Positions 8,740-25,490 of a stretch of 40,882 nt of DNA are shown here, one piece after another. The translations under genes and the position numbers were made by a program. Each line of letters begins with the position of its first letter. Positions within the stretch are counted from its first letter, which is position 1. A model generated the notes under the pieces. It did no database searches and was not told the DNA's origin. It saw only the letters and a list, made by a program, of their open reading frames with translations. This stretch comes from Nitrospirae bacterium GWC2_57_13 (GTDB lineage: Bacteria > Nitrospirota > UBA9217): contig MHDZ01000092.1 of assembly GCA_001805055.1 (NCBI GenBank), forward strand, positions 12,906 through 53,787, written 5' to 3'.

Positions 8740-9348
8740 ATGGGGCGGAATGGTGGTGCAAAGATACGCGGAGAGGTCAGGCGCGAACAGGTGGTTACCG
8801 CAACGCTCCGAATCATCGGAAAGAAGGGTGTGAGCGGCCTGACCACGGCCGCAATCGCCAGGGAAGTGGGCATGTCGGAGGCAAACATCTATCGTCACTT
8901 CAAGAACAAGGAAGAAATACTCTACGAGACAGGGAAGAGCATCGGTCGGTCCCTCAGCAGTAATCTTGATGCTGTGTGGAAAATGGAAATACAACCTATT
9001 GCGAAACTGAAAAAAATCTTTCAACTTCATCTCGAATTTCTTAAGGCGAATGACGGGATACCCCGCCTGGCCTTCTCCGAGGAAATGCATGTGAACAACG
9101 CACGGCTGCGCAAATTATTTTTACAGAATATCCAGGCATACTCCACGGGCCTTGAGGAAATTATCGGACATGGTGTGCGTTCGGGGATCATCAGGAAGAA
9201 CGTCGATCCTCAAGGAGCGGCACTTATGATGATCGGTATGATACAGGTCACGCTGATGCGTTGGTCGCTTTCCGGACGCGCCTTCGATCTTGTAACGGAA
9301 GGCATGAAATTATGGACGAATTGTGAGCGCTACCTTTCCGAAGGGTAG
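8740..9348 (+). CDS. TetR-family transcriptional repressor
   Basis: A 202-residue protein with a TetR N-terminal helix-turn-helix at about 33-60 (TTAAIAREVGMSEANIYRHF) and a divergent C-terminal ligand domain. It is the first gene of an exporter operon, 22 bases before the TolC-like gene. The palindrome at 8708-8725 overlaps its promoter, so it very likely represses itself and the exporter until a ligand binds. The start at 8740 gives the usual N-terminus, with AAAAGGAG upstream. The ligand cannot be told from sequence. Confidence 0.9.
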   Translation: MGRNGGAKIRGEVRREQVVTATLRIIGKKGVSGLTTAAIAREVGMSEANIYRHFKNKEEILYETGKSIGRSLSSNLDAVWKMEIQPIAKLKKIFQLHLEFLKANDGIPRLAFSEEMHVNNARLRKLFLQNIQAYSTGLEEIIGHGVRSGIIRKNVDPQGAALMMIGMIQVTLMRWSLSGRAFDLVTEGMKLWTNCERYLSEG

Positions 9349-9370
9349 CGCAGAAAGAGAGGGTCGAGCT

Positions 9371-10693: not shown

Positions 10694-11559
10694 AAAAGAG
10701 AGCTTTGATCGCGGGTATCGTCGTCCTTATCGGAACGACTGTTTTTCTGATACGACATTTCGGCGGCGAGCACGATGACCATACGCTGATCGTGTCGGGA
10801 AACGTTGAAGTAACCGAGATTAACATGGGGTTCAAGAGCTCCGGCCGCGTGATCTCGCTTCTCACCGATGAGGGCCGCACGGTCAAGAAGGGAGAAAAGC
10901 TCGCAATTCTCGACAACGACGAATACGAAAGCCAGGTGGCGCAGCTCAGGGCGGGACTGAGGAACGCAGAGGCGGAGCTCGAGAAGGCGAAAAAGGATCA
11001 TGAGCGGGCCGCTTTTTTGTATGAAAATGGAGCCATATCGGCCCAGTTGATGGACAACGCACAGAAAGCGTACGACGTTGGCCGTTATCGCGTCCAGGAA
11101 GCGACGGCGGCGCTCAGGACTTCCGAGGCGCGATTGCACGATACGGCGATCCATGCCCCGGTCTCCGGGGTGGTCCTTCGGAAAAGCATCGAGGCCGGAG
11201 AGACCGTTGGAGCCGGAACGCCGGTCTTGGCCATCGGTGATCTCGAAAATCCGTGGATCAAGGTGTACGTGAAGGAAGATAAACTTGGTCTCGTGAAACT
11301 TGGCCAGAAGGCGGAGGTAACGGTGGATTCCTACCCTGGAAAAGTGTACGACGGTACGGTCACTTACATATCCTCGGAGGCTGAATTCACCCCGAAGAAC
11401 GTACAGACGCAGGAAGAGCGGGTCAAACTCGTGTTCGGCGTGAAGGTAAGCGTCAAGAATGAAAAGGACGAACTCAAGCCGGGCATGCCGGCGGATGTGA
11501 AGATACTGCTGCAGCCGGCAGTCAGCAGCCAGGAGTCAAGAGTCAGGAGTCAGGAGTGA
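10690..11559 (+). CDS. HlyD/YbhG-type membrane fusion protein
   Basis: A 289-residue periplasmic adaptor. It has one N-terminal membrane anchor (about 5-22), a split biotinyl-lipoyl-like domain (GNVEVTEINMGFKSSGRV and DTAIHAPVSGVVLRKSIEAG), an alpha-helical hairpin between (about 80-155) and a beta-barrel. It links the ABC-2 permeases to the TolC-like channel. It starts within the tolC stop codon. The last dozen residues (SSQESRVRSQE) are encoded by a GAGTCA-type heptamer run, so the C-terminus looks like a repeat-derived extension. Its stop overlaps the GTG start of the first ATPase. Confidence 0.9.
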   Translation: MKKRALIAGIVVLIGTTVFLIRHFGGEHDDHTLIVSGNVEVTEINMGFKSSGRVISLLTDEGRTVKKGEKLAILDNDEYESQVAQLRAGLRNAEAELEKAKKDHERAAFLYENGAISAQLMDNAQKAYDVGRYRVQEATAALRTSEARLHDTAIHAPVSGVVLRKSIEAGETVGAGTPVLAIGDLENPWIKVYVKEDKLGLVKLGQKAEVTVDSYPGKVYDGTVTYISSEAEFTPKNVQTQEERVKLVFGVKVSVKNEKDELKPGMPADVKILLQPAVSSQESRVRSQE

Positions 11560-11566
11560 ACGAGTC
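11531..11566 (+). repeat. Heptamer run inside hlyD-like gene end
   Basis: Four to five copies of a 7-base unit GGAGTCA/AGAGTCA span the last codons of the adaptor gene and the first codons of the next gene. Period seven is shared with the AGAGCAG and AGTAGAC arrays nearby, though the unit differs. Confidence 0.65.
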
Positions 11567-12476
11567 AATTGCCATCAAAACAGCAGGTCTTACCAAGTCC
11601 TTTGGGGACAATATTGCCGTCGATCGTCTCAATCTCGAGATCCGGAAAGGCGAGCTCTTCGGGCTGGTTGGGCCTGACGGCGCAGGCAAGACCACGACCA
11701 TGCGGCTGCTCACGGCGATCCTGGAGCCCACGTCGGGCGAGGCATGGGTGTCCGGCAGTTCGATCCAGACGGACGGTGAGCGCATCAAGGAAAAGATCGG
11801 CTACATGTCGCAGCGCTTCGGCCTCTACGAGGACCTGACGGTGATAGAGAATATCAATTTCTACGCCGATCTTTATGAGGTGCCGAAAAAAGAACGGCCG
11901 TCGCGGATCGAGCGACTGCTCGGCTTCAGCAACCTTATGCCGTTCAAAGAGCGGCTCGCCGGCAAGCTCTCGGGCGGCATGAAGCAGAAGCTCGGCCTGG
12001 CCTGCGCGCTCATCCACACGCCGGAGGTCCTCTTTCTGGACGAACCGACGAACGGCGTCGACCCCGTTTCGCGAAGGGATTTTTGGCGGATACTTTATGA
12101 TCTTTTGCGGGAGGAGGTGACTATCTTCGTCTCAACCGCATATCTGGATGAGGCTGAACGCTGCACAAGGATCGGGCTCCTGCATAGGGGGAAAATCCTG
12201 ATAGAAGGCATGCCGGTGAATGTGAAGAATTCCCTCGGCCTGCCCATGATCGAGGTGTGGTCAGACGATTCGCGGACTGCGCAGGAGATCGTCAAAGGGA
12301 TAGCAGGCGTCAAGGGAGTGAGCATCTATGGCGACAAGCTCCATGTTACTCTCGATGCAAAAGAAACCGCAGAAAAGGTCGTGAATACGCTGAAAAGCGA
12401 GGGGGGGACGATTAAAGATTACCGGGAAATAACGCCGTCCCTTGAAGATGTGTTCATTTCCATGGTGGAGAAGTAA
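11556..12476 (+). CDS. ABC exporter ATPase (YbhF N-half-like)
   Basis: A 306-residue nucleotide-binding protein. Walker A is GPDGAGKTT (39-47), the signature is LSGGM (138-142), and Walker B is VLFLDEP (158-164). The switch histidine of the H-loop is replaced by alanine (STAYLDEA, A195). GPDGAGKT and STAY are features I recall from the first half of the fused E. coli YbhF ATPase. Here the two halves are separate genes. The GTG start overlaps the adaptor's stop codon. It probably works as a heterodimer with the ATPase at 12548. The missing histidine suggests weak ATP hydrolysis at its own site. Confidence 0.92.
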   Translation: MNESIAIKTAGLTKSFGDNIAVDRLNLEIRKGELFGLVGPDGAGKTTTMRLLTAILEPTSGEAWVSGSSIQTDGERIKEKIGYMSQRFGLYEDLTVIENINFYADLYEVPKKERPSRIERLLGFSNLMPFKERLAGKLSGGMKQKLGLACALIHTPEVLFLDEPTNGVDPVSRRDFWRILYDLLREEVTIFVSTAYLDEAERCTRIGLLHRGKILIEGMPVNVKNSLGLPMIEVWSDDSRTAQEIVKGIAGVKGVSIYGDKLHVTLDAKETAEKVVNTLKSEGGTIKDYREITPSLEDVFISMVEK

Positions 12477-12540
12477 GAGAGCAGAGAGCAGAGAGCAGAG
12501 AGCCTCATACCCTATGCGCTATGCTCTATGCGCTTTGCGT
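12477..12540. repeat. Heptamer array plus ATGC tail between ATPase genes
   Basis: 12477-12503 holds about four AGAGCAG units and 12513-12537 the TATGCGC/TATGCTC heptamers. It has the same architecture as bases 1-124. It splits two genes that should be translated in equal amounts. Confidence 0.85.
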
Positions 12541-12547
12541 AAGGTAA

Positions 12548-13501
12548 GTGCCTGCACCAAAAAACGAGGATTCTATCTTGAAGGATGACATAGCCGTCAA
12601 AGTAGAAGAGCTCACCCGCACGTTCGGTGATTTTACGGCCGTGGACCATATCGACCTCGAGGTCAAAAAGGGCCAGATCTTCGGTTTCCTGGGTCCTAAC
12701 GGCGCAGGAAAATCAACAACGATCAAGATGCTCTGCGGTCTTCTGCTGCCCACGAGCGGCAGCGGCTTAGTGGCCGGGTACGATGTTATGCGTGAATCCG
12801 AAGAGATAAAGAAAACCATCGGCTACATGTCACAGAAGTTTTCACTCTACGATGATCTCACGGTAGAGGAAAATATCAACTTCTTCAGCGGCATCTACAA
12901 CGTCAGGCAGGATAAAAAAGAGGGGCGCAAGGAATGGGCGCTGGAAATGGCGGGGCTGAAGGATAAGAGAGGCGTTCTGACGAGGACCCTCCCTGGCGGA
13001 TTCAAGCAGAGGCTTGCCCTGGGCTGTGCAATTTTACACGAGCCGCCGATCCTGTTCCTCGACGAGCCAACATCCGGCGTGGACCCCATATCTCGCCGGA
13101 ACTTCTGGACGCTGATCTACGAAATGTCGCAGACGGGTACCACGATATTTGTTACGACGCATTACATGGATGAAGCGGATTACTGCGACCGGCTTGCGCT
13201 CATCTATCGAGGAAAGATCATTGCTGAAGGCACGCCGGACGAACTCAAGCAGAAACACATGGTCAAGACCGTGCTTGAGATCGACGTTGACAGGGTGGTC
13301 GAGGCCATGGAGGCGCTCTACAAGAATAAGATCGAGACCGCGATCTTCGGCAGTCTGCTCCATGCGACGGTGGATGAAGCCGGGACAGCGGTTCCGGAGA
13401 TCAGAAGAATACTTGGAGAATCGAACATCACGATCAATAAGATTGAAAAGATCGTCCCGTCGCTGGAGGACGTGTTCGTGACGCTGATCGAGGTGTCGTA
13501 A
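12548..13501 (+). CDS. ABC exporter ATPase (YbhF C-half-like)
   Basis: A 317-residue nucleotide-binding protein. Walker A is GPNGAGKST (49-57), Walker B is ILFLDEP (168-174), and the H-loop histidine is intact (TTHYMDEA, H205). The signature motif is altered to LPGGF (148-152). Its defects therefore complement those of the upstream ATPase. The start is uncertain: GTG at 12548 has a weak site (TAAGG), while TTG at 12578 is preceded by GAGGA at seven bases and would remove ten residues. Partner of the 11556 ATPase and the two permeases. Confidence 0.9.
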   Translation: MPAPKNEDSILKDDIAVKVEELTRTFGDFTAVDHIDLEVKKGQIFGFLGPNGAGKSTTIKMLCGLLLPTSGSGLVAGYDVMRESEEIKKTIGYMSQKFSLYDDLTVEENINFFSGIYNVRQDKKEGRKEWALEMAGLKDKRGVLTRTLPGGFKQRLALGCAILHEPPILFLDEPTSGVDPISRRNFWTLIYEMSQTGTTIFVTTHYMDEADYCDRLALIYRGKIIAEGTPDELKQKHMVKTVLEIDVDRVVEAMEALYKNKIETAIFGSLLHATVDEAGTAVPEIRRILGESNITINKIEKIVPSLEDVFVTLIEVS

Positions 13502-13511
13502 ATGCAGGAGA

Positions 13512-13556
13512 CAGTAGTCTAAACATAGTAGACAGAAGACAGCATGCAGTAGACAG
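13512..13556. repeat. AGTAGAC-type heptamer run
   Basis: Degenerate 7-base units (AGTAGAC, AGAAGAC) fill the gap between the second ATPase and the first permease. It is another member of the 7-base repeat class. Confidence 0.55.
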
Positions 13557-13571
13557 CACTTGGACTTCACC

Positions 13572-14681
13572 ATGAAATTATTGCGAATAAAAGCCATAGC
13601 AAAAAAAGAGCTGATCCAGGTATGGCGCGATCCCCTTAGTCTCGCCATGGCGTTCCTGATGCCCGTCATGCTGCTGTTCCTGTTCGGTTACGCGATCACA
13701 CTTGATGTAAATAACCTTACGACACTCGTCTATGATCTTGACAAGAGCAGCTTCAGCAGGGAACTCGTCGCTCAGTTTCGGGAGTCGGGGTACTTTACGG
13801 TCGTAGAGCATGTACATGAACATCGGGAGATCGACAGATACCTCGATACGGGCAGAGCCCAGGTGGCGCTATCCATACCGGAAGACTTCTCGGAAAACAT
13901 CCGAGCGGACAGAAAAGCCCAGTTTCAGGTGATCGTCGATGGGAGCGACTCGAACACGGCGACGATAGCCCTGGGTTACATAACCGCAATTACGGAACGC
14001 TATTCCCAGAGCGTAAAGGGTATTCATATAACGCCGCTGATCGATGCGCGATCGAGGGTCTGGTATAATCCCGAACTTGAGTCGAGAAACTACATCATAC
14101 CAGGGCTGATCGCAGTGATCATGGCGGTGATTGCCGCCCTTCTCACCTCGCTTACCATAGCGCGGGAGTGGGAGCGGGGCACGATGGAACAGCTCATCTC
14201 CACGCCGGTAAAAACACCTGAGCTGATCACGGGAAAGCTGATACCCTATTTCCTCATCGGCTTCATAGACATGATCCTGTCCATTCTCATGACCGTCTTC
14301 GTTTTTGGCGTCCCCCTGAAGGGAAATGTCCTTCTGCTCATGGCGCTTTCGAGCGTATTTCTTTTCGGCGGCCTCAGTCTGGGGATACTCATATCGGTCG
14401 CGGCCAAGTCCCAGCTTGTGGCGAGCCAGTTCGCCATGGTGGCAACGTTTCTTCCGGCGTTCCTGCTTTCCGGCTTCATGTATGCCATATCGAATATGCC
14501 CCAGGCGCTCCAGATTGTTACGTATTTCATCCCTGCCCGGTATTTTGTGACCATCCTCAAGGGGATATTCTTAAAGGCGAACACGCTCGGTTTCCTGATG
14601 TTCGAGACCGTGCTCCTGACCGTATTCGGGTTGGCGGTATTTGCGCTGGCAAACATGAAATTCAAAAAGAAGGTCCAGTAA
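13572..14681 (+). CDS. ABC-2 type permease (YbhS/YbhR-like), first copy
   Basis: A 369-residue membrane protein. One N-terminal membrane span (about 22-40) is followed by a large periplasmic domain (about 45-175) with the family motif VDGSDSNTA, then about five C-terminal spans. It is the transmembrane half of a drug-type ABC-2 exporter. The ATG at 13572 was chosen over TTG at 13560. Its stop lies two bases before the next permease, so the two are translationally coupled and likely form the heterodimeric pore. Confidence 0.9.
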   Translation: MKLLRIKAIAKKELIQVWRDPLSLAMAFLMPVMLLFLFGYAITLDVNNLTTLVYDLDKSSFSRELVAQFRESGYFTVVEHVHEHREIDRYLDTGRAQVALSIPEDFSENIRADRKAQFQVIVDGSDSNTATIALGYITAITERYSQSVKGIHITPLIDARSRVWYNPELESRNYIIPGLIAVIMAVIAALLTSLTIAREWERGTMEQLISTPVKTPELITGKLIPYFLIGFIDMILSILMTVFVFGVPLKGNVLLLMALSSVFLFGGLSLGILISVAAKSQLVASQFAMVATFLPAFLLSGFMYAISNMPQALQIVTYFIPARYFVTILKGIFLKANTLGFLMFETVLLTVFGLAVFALANMKFKKKVQ

Positions 14682-14683
14682 CC

Positions 14684-15796
14684 ATGTGGGAACGCATCAA
14701 ACAGATGATCATAAAGGAATTCATCCAGGTCTTCAGAGACAGGAGGATGAAGGCCATTATCTTCGCGACGCCCATCATGCAGCTTCTTATGTTCGGTTAC
14801 GCGGTCACGACAGACGTAAACAATATATCGACGGCATTCTACGACCTCGACAGGTCCTATGAAAGCCGGGAGCTGGCGCGAAGGCTCGAATCGTCAGGAT
14901 ACTTCAACATTGCATATACTCCCGCGTCTCCGAATGAAGTTCAGGAACTGGTCGACAGGGGAAAAGTGACCATGGCCCTTCAGGTCAACCGGGGATTTTC
15001 CAAGGATTTGAAAAGGAATATTCCCACCGAGGTCCAGATAATCGTGGACGGATCCGACTCAAATACGGCCACTGTTGCCATGGATTATGCGAACAAGATC
15101 ATCATGCAGTACACAAAGGATAGGGGCCTGCAGACCGGCAAGATATCGCCCGCAAAGATCGACCTCCGCACGCGGGCATGGTACAATCCCGAACTCAGGA
15201 GCAAAAACTACAACGTACCGGGTGTGATCGCCATCATTATCATGCTCACCTGTCTGCTTCTCACCGCCATGGCGGTGGTGCGGGAACGGGAGATCGGCAC
15301 CATGGAGCAGCTTATGGTCACGCCGCTCAGGCCGGTCGAGCTGGTTCTCGGGAAGACCCTGCCCTTCGCCGCCATAAGTTTTTTCGATATGGCCCTGGTA
15401 ACGCTGGTCGGCGTATTCTGGTTTGCGATTCCGATAAAGGGATCAGTCGTGCTCCTTACGGCGAGCACGGCGATATACCTTTTGTCCGTGCTGGGCGTGG
15501 GACTGTTTATCTCCACGATCTCAAGAACGCAGCAGCAGGCCATGATGGCGACTTTCCTTTTTTATATTCCGGCGGTGCTGCTATCGGGGTTCATGTTTCC
15601 CATCGCCAACATGCCCCAAGTGATCCAGTACGGGACATACCTGAATCCTCTGCGGTATTTTCTGGTCATCATCAGGGGGATATTCCTGAAAGGCAACGGC
15701 CCCGACGTTCTTTGGCCGCAAATGGCGGCGTTGCTGGCTCTTGGCGTGGTGGTGCTTACCTTCAGCACGCTCCGGTTTAGAAAGAGGCTGGGATGA
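14684..15796 (+). CDS. ABC-2 type permease (YbhS/YbhR-like), second copy
   Basis: A 370-residue paralogue of the upstream permease with the same layout: N-terminal span, periplasmic domain containing VDGSDSNTATVA, and about five C-terminal spans. The pair corresponds to YbhS/YbhR of E. coli. With the adaptor, the two ATPases and the TolC-like channel it completes a tripartite efflux pump. The exported compound is unknown. Confidence 0.9.
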   Translation: MWERIKQMIIKEFIQVFRDRRMKAIIFATPIMQLLMFGYAVTTDVNNISTAFYDLDRSYESRELARRLESSGYFNIAYTPASPNEVQELVDRGKVTMALQVNRGFSKDLKRNIPTEVQIIVDGSDSNTATVAMDYANKIIMQYTKDRGLQTGKISPAKIDLRTRAWYNPELRSKNYNVPGVIAIIIMLTCLLLTAMAVVREREIGTMEQLMVTPLRPVELVLGKTLPFAAISFFDMALVTLVGVFWFAIPIKGSVVLLTASTAIYLLSVLGVGLFISTISRTQQQAMMATFLFYIPAVLLSGFMFPIANMPQVIQYGTYLNPLRYFLVIIRGIFLKGNGPDVLWPQMAALLALGVVVLTFSTLRFRKRLG

Positions 15797-15837
15797 GATA
15801 AGGGAGATTGAAACCGAAATCAGAAAGGAGAAAACAT

Positions 15838-16470
15838 ATGATCGGAAGAGCAAACGCAGTAAGAATGGTTATTCTGTTGGCATTGGCAGGGAGTATCTGG
15901 TTTTTACCGCAAATGGCGGTCGCGCATTGCGACACGCTCGACGGGCCGGTGGTGGCGGATGCGAGGAAGGCATTGGATAAGGGTGATGTCACGCCTGTGC
16001 TCAAGTGGGTGCGACAGGATGATGAAAAGGAAATACGGGAGCTTTTTACGAAGACCCTGGTCGTCAGAAAAAAAGGGAAAGAAGCAAGGGAGCTGGCTGA
16101 CCTGTACTTTTTCGAGACCCTCGTCCGCATCCACCGGGCCGGAGAAGGAGCGCCCTACACCGGCCTGAAGCACGAAGCTGCCGAGCCGATCATTCTGGCC
16201 GTTGACAAGGCGCTCGATACAGGGTCCGCGGCTCACGTGGTGAGGCATGTTTCGGGAACCGTCGCATCAGGCATCCAGGAGCGATATGATCGGACCAGGG
16301 AGGCGCTGAAACACGCTCAGGAGAGCGTCGAGGCTGGCAGGAAATACGTCGAGGCCTATGTTGAGTTGACGCATTATGTAGAGCGGCTGTTTCATGACGC
16401 GTCGCACAGCGCCCATGGGGGAGGCAAAGAGTCCTCTTCGCTCAAACAGCCTGCTGCGCACGGGCATTGA
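15838..16470 (+). CDS. DUF6448-family exported protein
   Basis: A 210-residue protein with a signal peptide (about 1-29); the mature chain begins HCDTLDGP. It carries patterns I associate with DUF6448: DTLDGPVV, KWVRQDDEKEI and YFFETLVRIHRAGEGAPYTG (the last at 90-109). The mature part is largely helical and ends in a His-rich tail with seven histidines in the last 25 residues, so metal binding is possible. The ATG follows AAAGGAG. It lies 41 bases after the last permease on the same strand, so it is probably the last gene of the exporter operon. No activity is known to me; a periplasmic accessory role is a guess from position. Confidence 0.75.
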   Translation: MIGRANAVRMVILLALAGSIWFLPQMAVAHCDTLDGPVVADARKALDKGDVTPVLKWVRQDDEKEIRELFTKTLVVRKKGKEARELADLYFFETLVRIHRAGEGAPYTGLKHEAAEPIILAVDKALDTGSAAHVVRHVSGTVASGIQERYDRTREALKHAQESVEAGRKYVEAYVELTHYVERLFHDASHSAHGGGKESSSLKQPAAHGH

Positions 16471-16594: not shown

Positions 16595-18067
16595 ATGATC
16601 CCGCTTTTCTTTCAAAAAGAGATCATTCTGCCTGCCGCAACGGACGACGACCGGCGTGCCGACGACCAGCGTATTCGCGACAGCCTGGATCTGCATCCGC
16701 TTGCGATCCCCCTTGGAGTGCTTCGCAAGGTCCCGCAGACGGTGCGGGGCAAGGACCGGATCTCGTGCATCATCGGCAGGGACAGTGCCGGGTTTCGGCT
16801 GATCAGCATCGGGACCGGACGGTCCTGCTCCGTGGCTCTTGATATCGGGACTACGAATCTCGTGGCCACGCTCTGCGACAATGTGACGGGCCGCGACCTT
16901 TCGACCTTGCATGTTGAGAATCCCCAGATCGCCTTCGGCTCCGACATCCTGACCCGCCTGCATCACGCCATGTCAGGCCGGGCAGAGGAGCTATTCAGCG
17001 TATTAGTCACGGGCATCAATGGGCTTATTGCACGGCTTTGCAGTGACGTCGGCGTTGACCAGCAGGACGTGCATGGCCTGGCCGTGGCAGGCAACACAGT
17101 CATGAGCCACTTTTTCCTCGGCCTCGACGTCAGCACCATCCCCGTGGACCCTTTCGTTCCTGTGGTCAGGACGCCGGGGTTCTTCGATGCCTCGGAACTG
17201 GGGCTGGCAATCCACCCCCAGGCCCTGGTCTATGTCTTTCCGAACGCAGGCAGCTACGTGGGCGGGGACATCGTGGCAGGCATCGTGGCCTCAGGTCTTG
17301 CGTCGTCAGCGGAAACATCCATCCTGATCGATGTGGGCACGAACGCCGAGGTGGTAATCGGGAACAAAGACTGGATGCTGGTCGGAGCAGGGGCTGCGGG
17401 TCCGGCGCTGGAGGAAGGAATATCCCTGATCGGCAAGCGCGCCAGCAAGGGGATCATCTACGACGTGGCGATCACGGGCAAAGGCATTGCCTGCTCCACC
17501 TTCGACAACGCTGCGCCTGAAGGCATCTGCGGCTCAGGTATGGTGAGCCTGCTGCATGAACTGTATGCAGCCGATATCGTGGATAAAAGCGGTGCCTTCA
17601 AGTCCGGGGCGAAGAACGTGGAAACGATGAACGGCGAGCAGGCCTTCCGGATCAATTGTTCCGGAGGGGAGGGCCTGGCGATCACGCAGAGCGAGATCAG
17701 CAACTTCATGAAATCCAAGGCAGCCATGTTCACGCTGCTGCTGGTGCTGACGCGCGCTGTGGGGATAAGCTTCAGGGATATCCGGCGCGTTTTCGTTGCC
17801 GGAGCACTCGGCACGGGCATTGATGTCAGGAAGGCGGCAGGCATCGGCATGCTTCCCGGCTGGGAGCCGGGCATCATCACGCCCCTTGGGAATGCCTCGC
17901 TTACGGGGGCGCGGATGCTGCTTGCAAAGGGCGATCTGCTGAGAACGATCGATGCGATCAGCGACAGGATCACCTATAAACACATGCACGATGACCCGGA
18001 GTTCATGAAGGAGTTCCTCGGCGCCGTGTTCATCCCCCATACGGACCCGTCGCTTTTGAAGGTCTGA
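16595..18067 (+). CDS. ASKHA-domain protein (RACo/DUF4445-like) lacking ferredoxin domain
   Basis: A 490-residue protein in the family of ATP-dependent reductive activators of corrinoid proteins (RACo, RamA). The sugar-kinase/Hsp70-type ATPase site is visible: DIGTTN (83-88), a second DVGTNAEV motif, and AGAAGPALEEG. Known RACo proteins are over 600 residues and begin with a 2Fe-2S ferredoxin domain. This one lacks it and starts with about 75 residues resembling the linker region. No cluster-binding cysteine set is seen, so a separate electron donor would be needed. No corrinoid protein or methyltransferase gene lies nearby. The actual partner is unknown. Confidence 0.75.
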   Translation: MIPLFFQKEIILPAATDDDRRADDQRIRDSLDLHPLAIPLGVLRKVPQTVRGKDRISCIIGRDSAGFRLISIGTGRSCSVALDIGTTNLVATLCDNVTGRDLSTLHVENPQIAFGSDILTRLHHAMSGRAEELFSVLVTGINGLIARLCSDVGVDQQDVHGLAVAGNTVMSHFFLGLDVSTIPVDPFVPVVRTPGFFDASELGLAIHPQALVYVFPNAGSYVGGDIVAGIVASGLASSAETSILIDVGTNAEVVIGNKDWMLVGAGAAGPALEEGISLIGKRASKGIIYDVAITGKGIACSTFDNAAPEGICGSGMVSLLHELYAADIVDKSGAFKSGAKNVETMNGEQAFRINCSGGEGLAITQSEISNFMKSKAAMFTLLLVLTRAVGISFRDIRRVFVAGALGTGIDVRKAAGIGMLPGWEPGIITPLGNASLTGARMLLAKGDLLRTIDAISDRITYKHMHDDPEFMKEFLGAVFIPHTDPSLLKV

Positions 18068-18097: not shown

Positions 18098-18240
18098 AGA
18101 TGGTTTCTCGCCAAGGCGCCAAGGTCGCAAAGAAAGGCTATAGCCTCTGGTTTTAAAACCAGGAGGAAAAGGTTTCCTTTGCGAACTTTGGAGCTTTGCG
18201 AGAGACGCCTTTGGGTTCCGATCTGTCCGGGTCAGGCCAA
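18098..18240. repeat. Long palindromic repeat, copy 2 (after MOSC gene)
   Basis: It begins TTTCTCGCCAAGG and ends CTTTGCGAGAGACGC...TCCGG. The two ends are inverted repeats of about 27 bases with around 80% complementarity. It is homologous along about 140 bases, in the same orientation, to the copy at 18923-19062. Its right end overlaps the stop codon of the minus-strand MOSC gene, so it could serve as a structured 3' end. Confidence 0.75.
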
Positions 18241-18882
18241 CTGACTCCTCAACTTCTCAAACGACTCGCGCCAGGAAGCGGAGAGTGCAGGGGCCGACAG
18301 GACACGCTCGATGCCGTCGCTGTCCTTCCTGTTGTGGTGAAATACGCTGTTTGCGAATGCGACGGTGATGGCGTGATCGTCCTTTTTGACAAGGCTGAGT
18401 GCATCACCCTGTTTCACGACCCCTTCTTTCAGCATCCGCATATAGAATCCGGTCCTGCCTGCATCCACCACGAGCTTCACCATGTCGCTTCTGCCGAACC
18501 GGGCCGCGAGCGTGTTGCAGGGCTGGCGGGGCTGGCTCACCTGGACCAGCGCGGTCCCGAGCTGGAAGATATCTCCGATGTTGACATCGGCCTCCTGCAG
18601 TCCGGAGACCGTCAAATTTTCACCAAAGGCCGCGTCAGGCAGCTTCGTGCCAAGCGTCCGTTCCCAGTACTGGTAATGCTCCAGGCTGTAGACGCAGACC
18701 GCTTTGTCCGGGCCGCCGTGGTGTTTCGTGTCGCCGACGCCGTCGCCTTCGAAGCCGTTCATGGTGAGCCTGACCGGTCCTGATGCTGACTTCTTGACGA
18801 TCCCCGTAAAATATTCCTTGCCCTGGAGCAGTTCTTTGCGGGGCAGTCCGATATTGAGTGATTCAATGAGTGGCAGGGTCAT
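18232..18882 (-). CDS. MOSC-domain protein (YiiM-like)
   Basis: A 216-residue protein with the MOSC patterns GDTKHHGGPDKAV (50-62) and FGENLTVSG (86-94), and the conserved cysteine C122 in QPRQPCN. It has a C-terminal three-helix extension, as in YiiM. MOSC proteins bind the molybdenum cofactor and several reduce N-hydroxylated compounds; that role here is by family only. AAAGGCG precedes the start codon. Two homologous repeats flank it on both sides in direct orientation. Confidence 0.9.
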   Translation of the reverse strand: MTLPLIESLNIGLPRKELLQGKEYFTGIVKKSASGPVRLTMNGFEGDGVGDTKHHGGPDKAVCVYSLEHYQYWERTLGTKLPDAAFGENLTVSGLQEADVNIGDIFQLGTALVQVSQPRQPCNTLAARFGRSDMVKLVVDAGRTGFYMRMLKEGVVKQGDALSLVKKDDHAITVAFANSVFHHNRKDSDGIERVLSAPALSASWRESFEKLRSQLA

Positions 18883-19065: not shown

Positions 19066-19608
19066 TCAATACCAGAATTCGGGATACCTGCGGTTCCTGG
19101 GAATATTGTTCACCAGCAGGGCTATGAGCAGCATAACTAAAGCGCCGGCGCCGGCAGGGACCAGGGCATAGAGATAGCCCAGACTGTGGATATTCTCGCC
19201 GCCGATCACGGCGATGAGCGCTGTGGCGCCGCCGGGAGGATGGAGCGTCTTGGTGGCGTGCATCAGGGCGATGGCCGTTGCAACAGCAGCGGCCCCGGCC
19301 AGCCAGAGGTTCGGACCGAAGAGCTGAAAGCAGGCCACGCCGATGATCGCCGAGAGCACGTGGCCTCCGAGAAGGTTCCGCGGCTGGGCGAGGGGGCTTT
19401 TGACGGCGCCGTAGATCAGGACAGCCGAGGCGCCGAAGGAACCGATGATCATCACCGCGCCTGTGCCGTCGATAAGCGTGAAGTTGATCAGCCCTACGGC
19501 CGCAATGCCCAGGAACGCTCCCACCCAGGACCAGAATATTTCCAAAGCGCTCACGCCCGGCGGGCTCTTGGTGATACCTTTCATCTTGGCGATGTAGTCG
19601 GTTATCAT
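19066..19608 (-). CDS. HPP-family membrane protein
   Basis: A 180-residue protein with about four membrane spans and the family motif HPPGGATA (123-130), plus GSFGASAVLIYG and SPLAQPRN. HPP proteins have been reported as nitrite transporters in plastids and cyanobacteria. The start at 19608 is set by AAGGAACT and by the family N-terminus; a much longer frame runs back into the CBS gene and is rejected. It follows the CBS-pair gene by 44 bases on the same strand. Many HPP proteins carry fused CBS domains, so this looks like a split version. Nitrite transport here is an inference supported by the nitrite/NO genes nearby. Confidence 0.88.
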   Translation of the reverse strand: MITDYIAKMKGITKSPPGVSALEIFWSWVGAFLGIAAVGLINFTLIDGTGAVMIIGSFGASAVLIYGAVKSPLAQPRNLLGGHVLSAIIGVACFQLFGPNLWLAGAAAVATAIALMHATKTLHPPGGATALIAVIGGENIHSLGYLYALVPAGAGALVMLLIALLVNNIPRNRRYPEFWY

Positions 19609-19652
19609 TAGTTCCTTATACAATGCATGATGGTCTTTGTGAAATTCGTGGT

Positions 19653-20288
19653 TCAAGTCTTTGATCGCGGTTCGGGTTTTCCCTTGTGTGTGGCCATGAT
19701 GATATCTTCCCTGGACACGATCCCGATGATCTCTCCCGTTTCTCCCACTACCGGCACACGATTTATCCGTCTCTCCGTAAGGAGCGTCGCGATCTCGAGC
19801 AGGGTGGTTCCCGGAGAGATCGTGACAGGCGGAATGGACATGATGTCTTCCGCTTTCTTTGCGCGGATAGGAAGAGCTACGCACCCGGAGCCTTTGAGGC
19901 AGTCGGCGATCACGGCCATGAAGGTCGTTCGGCCGCTTGAGCCCATATGGGCAAGAAAATCCTTCTCGGAAATTACACCTGCCACCTTGTTGTCGTTGTC
20001 CAGCACCGGCAGGCCGGAGATGCCTTTGTCCGCCATGAGCAGGGCCACATCGCGAAGAGGCATGGACCGCTTCGCCGTGACCACGGGAGCGGTCATGATG
20101 TCACGGGCCGTGATCGATCGATTGATGCGATCAGTCGCGTGGCGGAAGGCAAGGCGGTATACCTCGCGGAAATCCGCGGCCGTGATGTCCAGATAGCCCT
20201 GGATCTCCTTCATGGCCTCGTGGACATCGTCGTCGGTCATCTCCAGACCCCGGGGAAACCCCAGATCGCTGTTCTCGCTCCTTTTCAC
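19653..20288 (-). CDS. Two-CBS-domain regulatory protein
   Basis: A 211-residue protein with CBS domains at about 61-115 (DIMTAPVVT...GLPVLDNDNKVAGVISEKDF) and 146-200 (DIMSIPPVTIS...NRVPVVGETGEIIGIVSRED). CBS pairs bind adenine nucleotides and usually control an attached or neighbouring protein. The direct neighbour is the HPP membrane protein, its likely target. The start is GTG at 20288, supported by AAGGAG; no ATG lies at the right place. Its predicted promoter shares an FNR-like palindrome with the divergent globin gene. Confidence 0.88.
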   Translation of the reverse strand: MKRSENSDLGFPRGLEMTDDDVHEAMKEIQGYLDITAADFREVYRLAFRHATDRINRSITARDIMTAPVVTAKRSMPLRDVALLMADKGISGLPVLDNDNKVAGVISEKDFLAHMGSSGRTTFMAVIADCLKGSGCVALPIRAKKAEDIMSIPPVTISPGTTLLEIATLLTERRINRVPVVGETGEIIGIVSREDIIMATHKGKPEPRSKT

Positions 20289-20326
20289 GAATGCTCCTTA
20301 GCTTGAGATATCTGCACTTGCTGACG

Positions 20327-20332
20327 ATTGTA
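20327..20332 (-). promoter_or_regulatory. Possible -10 element of CBS-HPP pair
   Basis: Minus-strand TACAAT places a transcription start near 20320. The palindrome at 20355-20370 would then be centred about 42 bases upstream, the class II activator position for FNR/CRP proteins. No good -35 is present. Confidence 0.4.
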
Positions 20333-20354
20333 TGCTTTACAGTATAGCATGAGA

Positions 20355-20370
20355 TATGATCTGGATCATA
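20355..20370. promoter_or_regulatory. FNR/DNR-like palindrome between divergent genes
   Basis: TATGATCTGGATCATA is a perfect inverted repeat (7-2-7). It contains the FNR/CRP-superfamily core TGAT-N4-ATCA, with A/T in place of the outermost T/A of the classical FNR site. It lies between the CBS gene (minus) and the globin-PsiE gene (plus). Confidence 0.65.
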
Positions 20371-20410
20371 ATTCTGAAAATAGTGATGGAATGTAATGAG
20401 CCCTCTTTGC

Positions 20411-20416
20411 TATACT
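20411..20416 (+). promoter_or_regulatory. Possible -10 element of globin-PsiE gene
   Basis: TATACT predicts a start near 20424. The FNR-like palindrome is then centred at about -61.5, the class I activator position. The -35 region (GGAATG) is poor, as expected for an activator-dependent promoter. Confidence 0.45.
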
Positions 20417-20477
20417 GACATATATCACCTGAAAAAGCATACTACCAACGTAGCAGAATATTGACAAAGGAGCCCCC

Positions 20478-21380
20478 ATGCCTGTCCGATCGTTCAGGGA
20501 GATAAAACACGATTACCGGTTCACCGACGAAGATGAACAACGCCTCGCAGGGCTCAAGACCGTCATGGATGACCACGCTGACATGGTGATGAGCACGCTC
20601 AGCCTCTGGATCATGGGCACCAAGGGCGCTGCGCAGTTCTTTACCGACGAAACGCGTCAGAAGCACGTGTTCGAGGCCCAGCGGCGGTGGTTCCTGGAGC
20701 TGTTCTCAGGCGTCTATGACAACAGCTTTTACGAGAAACTGATCAAGATCGGCAGAGTGCACGTGAAGTTCAACGTGGACGCCCACTACATGAACCGGGC
20801 CATGAACATCGTGAAGAACTCCTGCATTGACGTTCTGCAGCGCACGGAAGAAGTGAAGGAGGAGTACACGAACAAGATCATCTCTCTCGGCAAGCTGCTT
20901 GACATCAGTCTGGACGTTATAACCACGGCCTATATCGACGAAGAGCTCAAGACCTATTCGCCGGCCTATAAGGTCAAGAGCGCGCTCATCGCCTTTGCAG
21001 AGCGCTTCTCGCAATCCATGAACCTCGTGCTGGTGCTGGCGCTGATCGGGCTGACCATTGGCGTGGTCTGGCTCTTTGTGATCGACGTGGGCAAGCTGAT
21101 CAACGGCGATCTGGAGCGGGGCATTATCGGCGCATTGGGCTCGCTCCTGCTCCTGTGGGTGATCATCGAACTGATGAACACCGAGATATCCCATCTTAAG
21201 GGCGGGAAGTTCCATATCAGCGTGTTCATCGGCGTGGCCCTGGTCACGACGATCCGGGAGACCATGATCGCGACGTTGAAGCACGAGAAAGCCGAAATGA
21301 TCTATTACCTCGTGGCCGCCATTCTGGTGATCGGCGTGGTCTACTGGCTCGTGGTCCGGACCGAGGACAGGACGCGATGA
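20478..21380 (+). CDS. Globin sensor domain fused to PsiE-like membrane domain
   Basis: The 300-residue protein joins two parts. Residues 1 to about 165 resemble a globin-coupled-sensor/protoglobin domain, with the proximal heme histidine H95 in IGRVHVKFNV. Residues about 175-295 have four membrane spans (about 181-203, 214-234, 246-266, 273-293) and a PsiE-like core, IIELMNTEISHLKGGKFHISV. The globin half would bind O2, NO or CO. PsiE-like domains have no established activity. The ATG follows AAAGGAG. It lies upstream of norC on the same strand, 355 bases away, and shares a candidate FNR-like operator with the CBS-HPP pair. The output of the membrane part is unknown. Confidence 0.8.
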   Translation: MPVRSFREIKHDYRFTDEDEQRLAGLKTVMDDHADMVMSTLSLWIMGTKGAAQFFTDETRQKHVFEAQRRWFLELFSGVYDNSFYEKLIKIGRVHVKFNVDAHYMNRAMNIVKNSCIDVLQRTEEVKEEYTNKIISLGKLLDISLDVITTAYIDEELKTYSPAYKVKSALIAFAERFSQSMNLVLVLALIGLTIGVVWLFVIDVGKLINGDLERGIIGALGSLLLLWVIIELMNTEISHLKGGKFHISVFIGVALVTTIRETMIATLKHEKAEMIYYLVAAILVIGVVYWLVVRTEDRTR

Positions 21381-21735
21381 TCCTTATGATATAGACCATA
21401 TCGTTTGAGAGCGATCTGTCCAACTCTTTCACTAACCCGCATAAAGCGGAATTGAAAATTGTAAATTGGAAAGTGCAAATTTGCGGAAAACGGCGGTCCA
21501 AAAACAGCCGTTTCATCCTTTGTTTGCAGGGCCTTTATGATTTTAGTAAATATATTCAACCCGTTTTGAGAAGCTTTTGATTCCTTAGTTATTAAAGCAA
21601 TGCGTCACCAGGCGGATGTACGAGATCGATGGCTGAGGAGGTGGTGGCCAATGAGATGATCGTCCGTGGTGCCCGTCTTATTTTCCTTCCGTAACAGCAT
21701 TCGCCTTTATTCAGTTCGAACACAGGAGGTGCGGT
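21381..21735. other. Intergenic region upstream of norC
   Basis: The 355 bases hold no convincing gene. A perfect 7-base stem AAACGGC/GCCGTTT (21488-21494 and 21507-21513) with a 12-base loop may end the globin transcript. A perfect 10-base palindrome GCAAATTTGC lies near 21475. AGGAGGT is present just before norC. I find no TGAT-N4-ATCA site here. Confidence 0.5.
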
Positions 21736-22437
21736 ATGACCAAGAAGGTTGCGTTATGGATCTTTCTTGTCGGCACCATCTCCTCGTCGGCCCTGTTCCT
21801 GTGGCTCACCTGGGACACGCACCGCCAGGTGGAGTTCCTTGCCAACGTGGACAAGCTATCCGACGATGTGGTGGCCGGAAAGAGGGTATTCGAGAAGTAC
21901 AACTGCAATGACTGCCATACCATTCTCGGCTTCGGTGCTTACTATGCGCCGGACATGACAAAGGTCGTGAAGCGCATCGGCGTCGACGGTATCCGCTACC
22001 GGGTGAAGAGCCCGGAAAAGGCCTTCGCGAACTCCTCGCGCAAGATGCCGCAACAGAACCTCACGGACGATGAGATCGAGAAGCTCATCGCCTTCTTTAC
22101 CTGGGTGGGCGAAATCGACAACAATGACTGGCCCCCCCAGGACAGCGCGAAGCGGCTGACCCGGAGCGAAGAGGTGATGGTCGCCTCGGCAGGTCTTTCG
22201 CCCGGTGCGGCCGTGTACCAGCGCCGGGGATGCATGAACTGTCATTCCCTGCAGGGGAAGGGCGGTTCCGTGGGGCCGGCCCTGGACAAGGTCGGCAAGC
22301 GATTGAAGCAGGCCGAGATCCGGCGGTACATCCGGGACCCGAAAGCGGTGAATGCGAAGGCTATCATGCCGGCGCAGAAGGACCTTTCCAACAAGGAACT
22401 GGATGAGGTCGCCAGGTTCCTGGCGAATTTGAAATGA
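21736..22437 (+). CDS. norC: Diheme NorC-like subunit of nitric oxide reductase
   Basis: A 233-residue protein with one N-terminal membrane span (about 5-27) and a NorC heme c domain. The first heme site is CNDCH (57-61) with its usual TILGFGAYYAPD context, and its methionine ligand is in KMPQQ. After NDWPP, where standard NorC ends, a second class I cytochrome c domain follows, with CMNCH (166-170) and a methionine in IMPAQ. Usual NorC is about 150 residues with a single heme. It passes electrons to NorB. GGAGGTGCGGT precedes the ATG. NorB starts ten bases downstream. Confidence 0.9.
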   Translation: MTKKVALWIFLVGTISSSALFLWLTWDTHRQVEFLANVDKLSDDVVAGKRVFEKYNCNDCHTILGFGAYYAPDMTKVVKRIGVDGIRYRVKSPEKAFANSSRKMPQQNLTDDEIEKLIAFFTWVGEIDNNDWPPQDSAKRLTRSEEVMVASAGLSPGAAVYQRRGCMNCHSLQGKGGSVGPALDKVGKRLKQAEIRRYIRDPKAVNAKAIMPAQKDLSNKELDEVARFLANLK

Positions 22438-22447
22438 GGAGGCTGCC

Positions 22448-23776
22448 ATGACATACCAATCCCAACGGATATCGCACTGGTACTTCAAGGCCGCCCTGCT
22501 TCTCTTTGCGCTGCAGGTGGTCCTGGGGCTCTGGCTCGCGATCAACTACAGTTATACACTCCCCCAGTCGATTGTAAACGTGTTTTCCTTTGCCACGGCG
22601 CGGGCCATCCATACGAACCTGCTCGTGCTCTGGATGCTTCTGGGGTTCATGGGAGGTACGTACTATATCGTACCTGAGGAGACGCAGAGCGAGATATACT
22701 CTCCGGCCATCGCCTGGTTCCAGCTCATTGCCTTAGTCGTGACCGGCGTAGTGGCCATTGTGGGCTTCGTGTTCGGCTGGACCCAGGGAAGACCGCTCCT
22801 GGAGATCCCCCGGCCCCTGGACGCAGTTGTGGTCATCGGCGCCCTGCTGTTCCTGTTCAACGTGGGCATGACCATGTTCAAGGCCAATCGGTGGACAGTG
22901 GTGCAGGGAACGCTCCTGGGCGGGCTGCTGTTTCTGGCCCTGCTGTACCTCTTCGGCATTCCGTTCTATAAGAACGTTGTCATCGACTGGTACTACTGGT
23001 GGTGGGTGATCCACCTCTGGGTGGAGGGTGCCTGGGAGCTGGTGACCGGAGCGATCCTGGCCTTCATCCTGATCAAGACCACCGGCGTTGACCGCCACGT
23101 GGTTGAAAAGTGGCTCTATGTGGAGATCGGGCTGTTCCTCTTCACGGGCATCGTGGGAACGGGCCATCACTACTACTGGATCGGCGCTCCGAAGTACTGG
23201 CTCTGGTTCGGCGGCATCTTCTCGGCTTTGGAGCCGCTCCCGATCCTGCTGATGATGATCGACACGATCATGCACGTGAAGAAACGGAAGCTGGAGATCA
23301 AGAACCCCTTTACGTTCACCCTCGCCGTGGGCTGTGCCGTGCTGCATATGATCGGCGCTGGCGTGCTGGGGCTGCTGCACACCCTTCCGCAGATCAACTA
23401 CTATACGCACGGCTCCCAGGTCACCGTGGCCCACGGCCACCTGGCCTTCTACGGCGCCTATGCACTGCTGAACTTCCTGGTCTTCTACTACGCCATGCCG
23501 AAGTTGAAGGGTATCGAGGTCTACAACGATACGAAGGGCAAGATCGCGTTCTGGACCATGTCGAGCGCCATGTCGCTGATGGCTGTCACCTTCGGCATCG
23601 CGGGTGTGGTGCAATCCTACGTGGAGCGCATGCTCGGCATGGGCTACATGACGGCCCAGCACTACATGCGGCTCTGGTTCGAGGTAACGCTCGTTCTTGG
23701 TATTTTTTTCTTCATCGGCATGCTGTTCATGGTATATGATCTGTTCACGCTCAAGCCGGCAAAAGTAAAGAAGTAG
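22448..23776 (+). CDS. norB: Nitric oxide reductase catalytic subunit NorB (cNOR)
   Basis: A 442-residue membrane protein of the heme-copper oxidase superfamily with about 12 spans. Active-site residues of cNOR are present: H189 and E193 in HLWVEGAWEL, H240/H241 in GTGHHYYW, and E262 in SALEPLP. Heme-ligand histidines lie in RAIHTNLL and VAHGHLAFYGA. No qNOR N-terminal extension is present, which fits the separate NorC. It reduces two NO to N2O. The usual accessory genes norQ and norD are not in this window. GAGGAGGCTGCC precedes the ATG. A strong terminator follows. Confidence 0.95.
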   Translation: MTYQSQRISHWYFKAALLLFALQVVLGLWLAINYSYTLPQSIVNVFSFATARAIHTNLLVLWMLLGFMGGTYYIVPEETQSEIYSPAIAWFQLIALVVTGVVAIVGFVFGWTQGRPLLEIPRPLDAVVVIGALLFLFNVGMTMFKANRWTVVQGTLLGGLLFLALLYLFGIPFYKNVVIDWYYWWWVIHLWVEGAWELVTGAILAFILIKTTGVDRHVVEKWLYVEIGLFLFTGIVGTGHHYYWIGAPKYWLWFGGIFSALEPLPILLMMIDTIMHVKKRKLEIKNPFTFTLAVGCAVLHMIGAGVLGLLHTLPQINYYTHGSQVTVAHGHLAFYGAYALLNFLVFYYAMPKLKGIEVYNDTKGKIAFWTMSSAMSLMAVTFGIAGVVQSYVERMLGMGYMTAQHYMRLWFEVTLVLGIFFFIGMLFMVYDLFTLKPAKVKK

Positions 23777-23792
23777 TGTGCATAGAAAATGC

Positions 23793-23827
23793 AAAGACCG
23801 GAGGGGTTTACCCTCCGGTCTTTTTTG
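23793..23827 (+). terminator. Rho-independent terminator after norB
   Basis: AAAGACCGGAGGG and CCCTCCGGTCTTT form a perfect 13-base stem with a five-base loop, followed directly by a T run. It lies 17 bases after the norB stop codon. Confidence 0.92.
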
Positions 23828-24107
23828 TTGTTCAGTCTGGACAAGCCTCGAAACAGCCGCGCAGGCAAGAACGGAAGTTTTTTTGACCGACCCTAAAAAG
23901 AGCAGTTGGGACGCGGAAAAATCGGATAAACGCAGATAACGGCCGGAACAAGAGACCTTCTTGGAATACCATAAGATTCATCAGCAGAGTGAACCGTCTT
24001 TCACGGAGAATGCTTTTGAATTATTCGCTCGTATCTGCCTCCAAAAAGCCGCTTCTCGGCCTGCCTGATACAAATCGAAAATCGGCATTCCAAAAGCCGA
24101 AATCGAG

Positions 24108-24422
24108 TTACTCCACCGGCGTCACCACGGCCATGACCACCAGCCGTTCGCCCTGGTCCGCGGCAAACCCATGGAGTACGCCGGGGTCGCAGGGGATGCA
24201 GGTCTTCTCGCCGGCAACGATCTTTTCGTCACCGACCGTGAAGGTCCCTTTTCCTTCCACGCAGTACATCAACAGCCGGAGCGGCGCCTTGTGCGGTTCG
24301 AGCTTCTGCCCCTTCTCCAGACACATGAGCGCGATGCGCATCTCAGGCTTGTCGGACAGCATTTCGCGGGAGATGCGGTCAGGCAAGAACTTAATAAGTT
24401 TTTTCAGGTCAAGGGTTTCCAT
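24108..24422 (-). CDS. Small cupin-fold protein
   Basis: A 104-residue single cupin domain: LEPHKAPLRLLMYCVEGKGTF (41-61) and PGVLHGF (80-86). Of the usual metal ligands only H44 and H84 are clear; E56 may be a third. Function cannot be assigned from this. The start at 24422 is set by AAAAAAGGAGG; the longer frame to 24479 is rejected because it crosses the predicted promoter. Upstream lies a half-conserved FNR-like site with good class II geometry. It is the only gene on its strand between norB and the CopD-b5 gene. Confidence 0.8.
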   Translation of the reverse strand: METLDLKKLIKFLPDRISREMLSDKPEMRIALMCLEKGQKLEPHKAPLRLLMYCVEGKGTFTVGDEKIVAGEKTCIPCDPGVLHGFAADQGERLVVMAVVTPVE

Positions 24423-24477
24423 GGCTGCCTCCTTTTTTCTGGGAACACATGAGATCATTGAGCTTGCATCTGGGGAC

Positions 24478-24518
24478 ATTATGCCACAAGCGAAAAGAGA
24501 ATGGTATGATCTGCGTCA
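24478..24518 (-). promoter_or_regulatory. FNR-like site and -10 of cupin gene
   Basis: On the minus strand CATAAT (24478-24483) predicts a start near 24471. TGACGCAGATCA (24507-24518) is then centred at -41.5. One half-site, read on the plus strand as TATGATCTG, is identical to that of the palindrome at 20355. The other half is GTCACA rather than ATCATA. Confidence 0.45.
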
Positions 24519-24527
24519 CACGGCCAG

Positions 24528-25454
24528 CTACCACCAGCGCCACAGGGCGATGACGAAGGTGATCACGAAGACCAGTGTAAGGTTCATGTAGGCGAAGAAA
24601 TAGAAGAGCCGCACATGGAAGGGGCGGTGTGGCTGCTCGCCTGTGGACAGGCGCTTGCTGACGACCGTCATGGCTTTGACCTTGTCCTCGCCGTGCGGGG
24701 CCGTGGATAGCAGGGACGTAAGGTCATGACCTGCCGCGTGCTTCATCATGTGAGATCCGTTCTTCCAGAGCCTGCTGCCGGTGACATCATATATGCGTCC
24801 CTGATAGGCAATGTAGGCGGGTCGGCCATCCTTCCCGTCAAAGTGCGGGAGCTGTTCGGGCGTGATTCCTCCAGCGATGTTCAGGGCCGCAGGCCCGCCC
24901 CGTTTCCTGAGCCGCGGTCCGATATAGATAGTCACGATAATGGCGCTCGAGAACATGACCAGGAAGAGCAGGATCTTGATGCCAAGCAATGCGCCGTAGC
25001 GGGTGGAGAAGAACAGGTCCCAGGAGGGGACCTTCCAGAAGGTCAGATAGGTCCCGGTGAGCAGGACCACGATCATCGAAAGCCAGCCAAGGCGCAGTTC
25101 GCCTTTGGGAAGCCCCTTTGATGCATAGGCAGGCTTGAGCAGAACATGGACATAGAGGATCGTGCCGAACCAGACGATAGAGGCAAGCAGATGGAAATAG
25201 CCCATGATGATTCGCAGAAGCGTCTTTGTCACGGGCGTAGTGTGCCCGCCGGAGTGCTGCAGTGCCGGCAGGAATTTTGATCCCGCCGCGGTCAGTTCCC
25301 TGCCGCCGCCGGGACTTACGTGGCAGTGCGAGCATGCTTGCCCGGACTGCAGGGCGAATTCCGGTGTGGCGGCAGCTTGGCGGGGGAATAGCGCGAGCAT
25401 GCAGAAGAGAAGGGTCGCGCAGCAGGCCACGGTGATGGAAACGCGAGAGAACAT
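24528..25454 (-). CDS. Heme c / CopD-like / cytochrome b5-like membrane fusion
   Basis: A 308-residue protein. The signal peptide (about 1-29) is followed by one heme c site CSHCH (41-45), a CopD-like set of membrane spans (about 80-106, 122-142, 152-178), a cytochrome b5-like domain (about 198-263: YIAYQGRIYDVTGSRLW, then HMMKHAAGHDL with H235, H239 and H243), and a final span (about 283-305). It could carry electrons between a c heme, membrane hemes and a b5-like heme. The ATG at 25454 is preferred because the signal peptide starts there. No ribosome site precedes it, and a promoter ends seven bases upstream, so translation may be leaderless. Partner unknown. Confidence 0.8.
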   Translation of the reverse strand: MFSRVSITVACCATLLFCMLALFPRQAAATPEFALQSGQACSHCHVSPGGGRELTAAGSKFLPALQHSGGHTTPVTKTLLRIIMGYFHLLASIVWFGTILYVHVLLKPAYASKGLPKGELRLGWLSMIVVLLTGTYLTFWKVPSWDLFFSTRYGALLGIKILLFLVMFSSAIIVTIYIGPRLRKRGGPAALNIAGGITPEQLPHFDGKDGRPAYIAYQGRIYDVTGSRLWKNGSHMMKHAAGHDLTSLLSTAPHGEDKVKAMTVVSKRLSTGEQPHRPFHVRLFYFFAYMNLTLVFVITFVIALWRWW

Positions 25455-25461
25455 GGCCGTT

Positions 25462-25490
25462 ATTATAGTGGAACGGGGCCGGTATTTCAA
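25462..25490 (-). promoter_or_regulatory. Sigma70 promoter giving a possibly leaderless transcript
   Basis: Minus-strand TTGAAA (25485-25490) and TATAAT (25462-25467) are 17 bases apart. Only seven bases separate TATAAT from the ATG of the CopD-b5 gene, so the first transcribed base would be at or next to the start codon. Confidence 0.65.

Follow-up and report, generated by a model that had tools for sequence, protein, structure and literature searches.

A probable nitrosative-stress regulon of Nitrospirota with a conserved FNR-like palindrome as its operator

The described systems closest to the locus considered here are the nitric oxide (NO)-responsive regulons of CRP/FNR-type factors: DNR and NnrR in denitrifying proteobacteria, and HcpR in Deltaproteobacteria, Clostridia and Bacteroidetes. 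The DNR box is CTTGAT-N4-ATCAAG and the NnrR box TTGcg-N4-cgCAA (Rodionov et al., 2005, PMC1274295), and the operators described for HcpR are TGTGA-N6-TCACA, TTGAC-N4-GTCAA and GTAAC-N4-GTTAC (PMC1274295, PMC5701242). In Desulfovibrio desulfuricans, a cupin beside hcp (Ddes_1828) is strongly induced by NO (PMC5701242); the main text of PMC1274295 makes no mention of HPP, CBS or cupin proteins. The window analyzed here is a stretch of 40,882 nucleotides (G000:C92:12906-53787) within a 3.3 Mb Nitrospirota metagenome-assembled genome, in which genes for an HPP membrane protein, a CBS-domain pair protein, a protoglobin fused to a PsiE membrane domain (globin-PsiE), the NO reductase subunits NorC and NorB, a small cupin and a haem c/CopD/cytochrome b5 fusion (CopD/b5) lie together. 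This stretch is probably a chromosomal piece of a Nitrospirota nitrosative-stress (NO) regulon under a CRP/FNR activator binding TATGAT-N4-ATCATA. The gene identities, their co-localization, the conserved operator, the spacing of its -10 hexamers and the co-occurrence of regulator and operator were all computed.

The initial annotation of the locus had placed an FNR-like site at the centre of a nitrite/NO response module, and this site proved to be real: it is a phylogenetically conserved operator common to hcp and other NO-defence genes. Phylum-wide counts were made in 296 Nitrospirota genomes, and about 250 bp upstream of the module genes were scanned for the operator. Scanning for the FNR consensus TTGAT-N4-ATCAA initially gave an excess at 8 of 10 matches, which led to ATGAT-N4-ATCAT, and a strong site was then defined as one with at least 9 of 10 matches to this pattern. 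In 14 of 15 families norC is preceded by the palindrome TATGAT-N4-ATCATA, as is the CBS gene of CBS-HPP in 9 of 12. Strong sites precede norC at 35 of 47 loci and CBS at 31 of 41, for about one expected per set in shuffles; a strong site also precedes HPP where HPP leads its operon, and occurs in 6 of 20 upstream regions for the cupin and 3 of 6 for the DUF6448 gene. When all 5-mer dyads with spacers of 0–12 were enumerated, excluding the window and its closest named relative, Nitrospiraceae bacterium UBA9217 (L002), the top dyad was TATGA-N6-TCATA (25 of 45 norC regions, shuffle maximum 2), giving the consensus TATGA-N6-TCATA / ATGAT-N4-ATCAT. In 2.2 Mb of fetched loci scanned for perfect 16-mers, 37 of 45 lay upstream of module genes and the reversed control gave 0 matches; in the 296 whole genomes, 324 perfect sites were found, versus 20 for the reversed pattern. 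With the relatives included, the full palindrome is thus far above chance. Dimers of CRP/FNR factors have their class II activator position at -41.5, and the -10 hexamer then lies 29–30 nt from the operator centre. At 81 sites, the distance from the operator centre to the start of a TATAAT-like hexamer is 29 or 30 nt in 26 cases, against 0.66 per other offset, so that the operator often lies where a class II activator would sit.

Within the window, the nine-nucleotide half-site TATGATCTG occurs four times, versus 0.25 expected from shuffling. It had been described as common to at least two promoters, and the copies at 20355 and 24505, which are the only ones to fall in promoters, agree with this. 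The copies at 23735, inside norB, and at 2560, which appears to lie inside another coding stretch, were rejected as regulatory. The sites and their -10 hexamers are as follows.

20355–20370, no strand assigned: operator TATGATCTGGATCATA, perfectly palindromic, in the region separating CBS-HPP from the divergent globin-PsiE gene, centred at about 20362.5
24505–24520, minus strand: imperfect operator TATGATCTGCGTCACA upstream of the cupin gene, also present in L002
21385–21400, plus strand: weaker operator-like site TATGATATAGACCATA between globin-PsiE and norC, overlooked in the initial annotation
20327–20332, minus strand: -10 hexamer TACAAT of CBS-HPP, at a class II spacing of 30 nt from the operator centre
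20392–20397, plus strand: -10 hexamer TGTAAT of globin-PsiE, 29 nt from the operator centre
24478–24483, minus strand: -10 hexamer CATAAT of the cupin gene, 29 nt from the operator centre

The sole good -10 hexamer of each of the CBS, globin-PsiE and cupin promoters thus lies at 29–30 nt, and this spacing makes the imperfect cupin site credible. No good -10 hexamer was found at the expected place for the norC site at 21385–21400, and norC may be transcribed in the window by read-through from globin-PsiE.

The genome encodes two HTH_Crp_2 proteins. One of them (L190) was rejected as the cognate factor, because it has a CRP-type (RE) helix, SSREAVSK. The other, encoded at G000:C33:96066-96734, belongs to the CRP/FNR superfamily (PF00027, E 5e-25; PF13545, E 1e-19) and has the recognition helix VGTTVETSIRT, conserved across 30 examined loci in the forms VETSIR, VETAIR, VETTIR or IETSIR. 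It has no N-terminal cysteine, and its single cysteine lies in the middle of the protein. FNR reads TTGAT with the helix E-T-I-S-R, and the change from Ser to Ile in the helix of the candidate would be consistent with the outer T to A change in the operator. The regulator was counted as present where a search within Nitrospirota gave a match with an E-value no higher than about 1e-50, and on this basis it was found in 45 of the 50 genomes with norB. Perfect sites number 2.27 per genome in the 114 genomes with the regulator and 0.36 in those without it, with kinship ignored. In G072, G086 and G206 the regulator gene and hcp are divergent and about 105–160 bp apart, and in G103 and G125 some 5 kb separate the regulator gene from norB. 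It is convergent with a gene for a COX1-like protein whose promoter bears the operator at most loci. Judging from helix and distribution, this protein is likely to be the cognate factor.

Elsewhere in the genome, the operator precedes hcp (hydroxylamine reductase, E 4e-249), at about 85–93 bp both here and in G255, and the genes for a NapH-like ferredoxin, a small zinc-ribbon protein, a multicopper oxidase and a COX1-like protein of 137 aa, the last of these genes being divergent from a DUF1858 gene. In relatives it precedes MOSC, YwiC and multihaem cytochrome genes, a hemerythrin gene in family f8 and, in family f10, a globin gene with an NO-inducible flavohaemoprotein as its best NCBIfam match. 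A target set of norCB, hcp, globin and hemerythrin is of the kind known from NO-response regulons (PMC1274295). Several further observations were made on these targets. In six f10 genomes (L253, L254, L256-L259), perfect operators stand before a single-domain globin gene, although these genomes lack the close form of the regulator. The gene for the COX1-like 137-aa protein (L193:3860-4273, L211-L239) has the operator in most genomes examined and is often divergent from a DUF1858 gene. In L182 and L183, operators precede a multihaem cytochrome gene partly matching hydrazine dehydrogenase, beside a putative membrane transporter gene.

The module genes named in the initial annotation are all at the places given there, and each matches its family. 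They are listed here with the adjoining features.

19066–19608, minus strand: HPP membrane protein (TM_HPP, PF04982, E 4e-60, well above the family cut-off)
19653–20288, minus strand: CBS-domain pair protein (E 1e-33), partner of HPP at most loci examined
20478–21380, plus strand: fusion of a protoglobin (PF11563, E 8e-25) and a PsiE membrane domain (PF06146, E 4e-23)
21736–22437, plus strand: NorC, a cytochrome c in which the haem c motif CxxCH occurs twice
22448–23776, plus strand: NorB of the cNOR type (COX1-type, with HLWVEGAWE and GTGHH)
23793–23823, both strands: terminator-like stem-loop after norB
24108–24422, minus strand: small cupin, 72–94% identical among Nitrospirota loci
24528–25454, minus strand: fusion of haem c (CxxCH), CopD membrane domain and cytochrome b5, from domain matches
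25462–25490, minus strand: sigma-70-like promoter of CopD/b5, TTGAAA-17-TATAAT, without the operator
18232–18882, minus strand: MOSC (YiiM-like) protein, whose gene occasionally lies beside HPP and in G041 has an operator to itself
15808–16470, plus strand: DUF6448 protein, an occasional member beside norB or CBS-HPP in other families

The neighbourhood comparison proposed in the initial annotation gave co-occurrence far above chance: norC-norB, HPP-CBS, the cupin gene and the CopD/b5 gene co-localize in varying order across many Nitrospirota families, and scattered neighbourhoods were therefore rejected. The full order MOSC-HPP-CBS-globinPsiE-NorC-NorB-cupin-CopD/b5-kinase is kept in L002; NorC-NorB-CopD/b5-cupin faces HPP-CBS in L099, NorC-NorB is divergent from CBS-HPP in L122, L125, L129 and L132, and L124 is a further mixed neighbourhood. 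The CopD/b5 gene directly follows norB in many relatives, and MOSC, DUF6448 and ABC permease genes are additional recurring neighbours outside the family of the window. norB was found in 50 genomes and HPP in 76, with both in 40 (Fisher 3e-19, kinship ignored). The two lie within 10 kb of each other in 16 of these 40 genomes, from five families (P of about 1e-22 under random placement), a count obtained despite the fragmented contigs of the sampled genomes. In the family of the window, all 14 genomes have globin-PsiE, HPP adjoins it in the 13 of 13 in which HPP was found, and in 8 of 9 norB genomes a copy of norB is no more than about 10 kb away from the globin-PsiE/HPP block. The window also holds, at 8740–15796, a row of genes for TetR-like, TolC-like and HlyD-like proteins, two ABC ATPases and two ABC-2 permeases; in several relatives, the permease genes are found again close to globin-PsiE or CBS-HPP. 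An AcsV-like corrinoid activation protein without the N-terminal part of the model is encoded at 16595–18067, and a large multihaem cytochrome-like protein with several CxxCH motifs, outside the module, at 6731–8518.

We infer activation by the regulator, as well as the part that HPP, the cupin, CopD/b5 and globin-PsiE would each play. The C33:96066-96734 protein, an activator of the HcpR/DNR type, would bind TATGAT-N4-ATCATA at -41.5 and switch on norCB (NO to N2O), the HPP-CBS membrane pair and the cupin gene, together with hcp and other redox proteins elsewhere in the genome. CopD/b5 would most likely hand electrons to the dihaem NorC; its gene is apparently either carried along by norCB or expressed from a promoter of its own. 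Globin-PsiE would be a gas-binding membrane protein recruited beside HPP-CBS in the family of the window. Several results weigh against this regulon. In the window, norC has just the weak site without a matching -10 hexamer, and the regulator is encoded elsewhere in the genome, unlinked to the window. Four genomes (G157, G241, G275 and G277) have several sites and no match to the regulator. Of 7 families, only 2 have a strong site before the cupin gene, for CopD/b5 one occurs in 1 of 20 upstream regions, and the genome statistics ignore phylogeny. In addition, the choice among NO, nitrite and O2 as the signal is drawn from regulon content and the missing FNR cysteines.

This last point bears on the closest alternative, namely that the site is a classical FNR box and that the genes form an oxygen-limitation regulon in which norCB is included by coincidence. 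The core of the operator resembles TTGAT-N4-ATCAA with the outer T changed to A, and the YwiC and NapH-like targets would suit anaerobic respiration. However, the regulator lacks the N-terminal cysteine cluster, the operator is unlike the FNR box (PMC1274295) and the targets centre on NO chemistry (norCB, hcp, globin and hemerythrin), content that points to NO as the probable signal and makes anaerobic control by FNR unlikely. Control by globin-PsiE as the sensor, with the DNA site incidental to it, is less probable still. The divergent operator is common to globin-PsiE and CBS-HPP in the window and in L002, and the fusion adjoins HPP throughout the family wherever HPP was found, but globin-PsiE lacks both a DNA-binding and a kinase domain, it is located elsewhere or absent in most families that have norCB, HPP-CBS and the operator, and in six families it lies by purH and/or purD. 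That the genes are chance neighbours, or share an unrelated mobile island, is hardly credible: gene order and strand do differ between families, yet the genes recur in several families in these different orders, share an operator with a fixed -10 spacing and co-occur at the level of whole genomes.

Globin-PsiE had also been listed in the module, but its general membership was rejected: it is in the cluster only in the family of the window, where few genomes have the operator before it, and elsewhere it is mostly found by purH and purD. Outside this family it is not found with norCB or HPP. It lies beside purH and/or purD, usually between them, in f11, f15, f16, f20, f27 and f33 (at least 27 genomes, L044-L080), and in f8 it adjoins UspA-like and P-type ATPase genes. 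The proposed entry of nitrite through HPP found no support beyond membership of a family with a cyanobacterial and plastid relative. Nitrite transport by HPP proteins has been reported in cyanobacteria and chloroplasts (Maeda et al., 2014, as cited in PMC4137279 and PMC7438415), and in anammox bacteria HPP genes are upregulated under nitrite limitation (PMC7438415). Of the initial interpretation, the co-occurring gene set and the conserved FNR-like operator are thus retained.

The recurrence of this NO-defence set across Nitrospirota, with a common switch, ties HPP-CBS, the cupin and the electron-transfer protein to NO defence. A bolder proposal, to which we give slightly less than even chances, is that VETSIR/VETAIR regulators reading TATGAT-N4-ATCATA form a distinct NO-responsive CRP/FNR clade that would be the main NO-defence switch of Nitrospirota, that HPP-CBS would be a core NO-defence component (CBS-gated nitrite/NO-related transport rather than nutrient nitrite import) and that haem c/CopD/b5 would feed a dihaem cNOR. 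The result is a testable NO-response network for a mostly uncultured phylum that is central to the nitrogen cycle, and the placement in NO defence of several little-understood proteins (HPP-CBS, the cupin, the CopD/b5 fusion, the small COX1-like protein and DUF6448) makes their roles directly testable. Literature searches returned no paper joining HPP with NO reductase in bacteria, and nothing relevant on CopD/b5 with NO, on protoglobin with PsiE or on Thermodesulfovibrio with HcpR.

Each component can be set beside a described relative. The best solved relative of NorB is the cNOR NorB of Pseudomonas aeruginosa (3o0r, E 1e-109), with which it shares the signatures HxWxExxWE (as HLWVEGAWE, kept in 50 of 52 relatives) and GHH (as GTGHH). 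Unlike the membrane-anchored, single-haem-c NorC of cNOR enzymes, the NorC of the window and 45 of 47 relatives have two CxxCH motifs, so that a cNOR catalytic subunit is combined with a dihaem variant of the electron-input subunit. The HPP protein shares the TM_HPP domain with the nitrite transporters of cyanobacteria and chloroplasts, but in Nitrospirota it has a CBS protein as its partner and comes under the operator. Globin-PsiE resembles the Geobacter globin-coupled sensor GsGCS (2w31, protoglobin match E 4e-26) in having a protoglobin with a proximal His (His95, invariant in 60 of 60 relatives) followed by a membrane domain; GsGCS has a distal His, whereas the aligned E11 position is Gln68 in the window protein, Gln in half of the relatives and His in 7 of 60.

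The regulon itself is of a known kind, that of the NO-responsive CRP/FNR regulons of DNR, NnrR and HcpR, and like them it has nor and hcp among its targets, with norC in the 14 of 15 families given above. With DNR and NnrR it also shares a factor without the FNR cysteines and an FNR-like palindrome with an N4 spacer, and with HcpR the hcp target, the homologous Nitrospirota regulator being divergent from hcp in one family. Dyad enumeration returned none of the published consensuses (PMC1274295): the DNR and NnrR boxes and the HcpR operators all differ from the Nitrospirota site, as does the Nitrospirota recognition helix V-E-T-S-I-R from that of HcpR. An exact-string search did not find TATGAT-N4-ATCATA in the literature on CRP/FNR-type NO regulators, to which it would add an operator type. 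What sets the Nitrospirota regulon apart from the described systems is the operator sequence, the helix of the regulator, the dihaem NorC and the HPP-CBS, CopD/b5 and COX1-like members.

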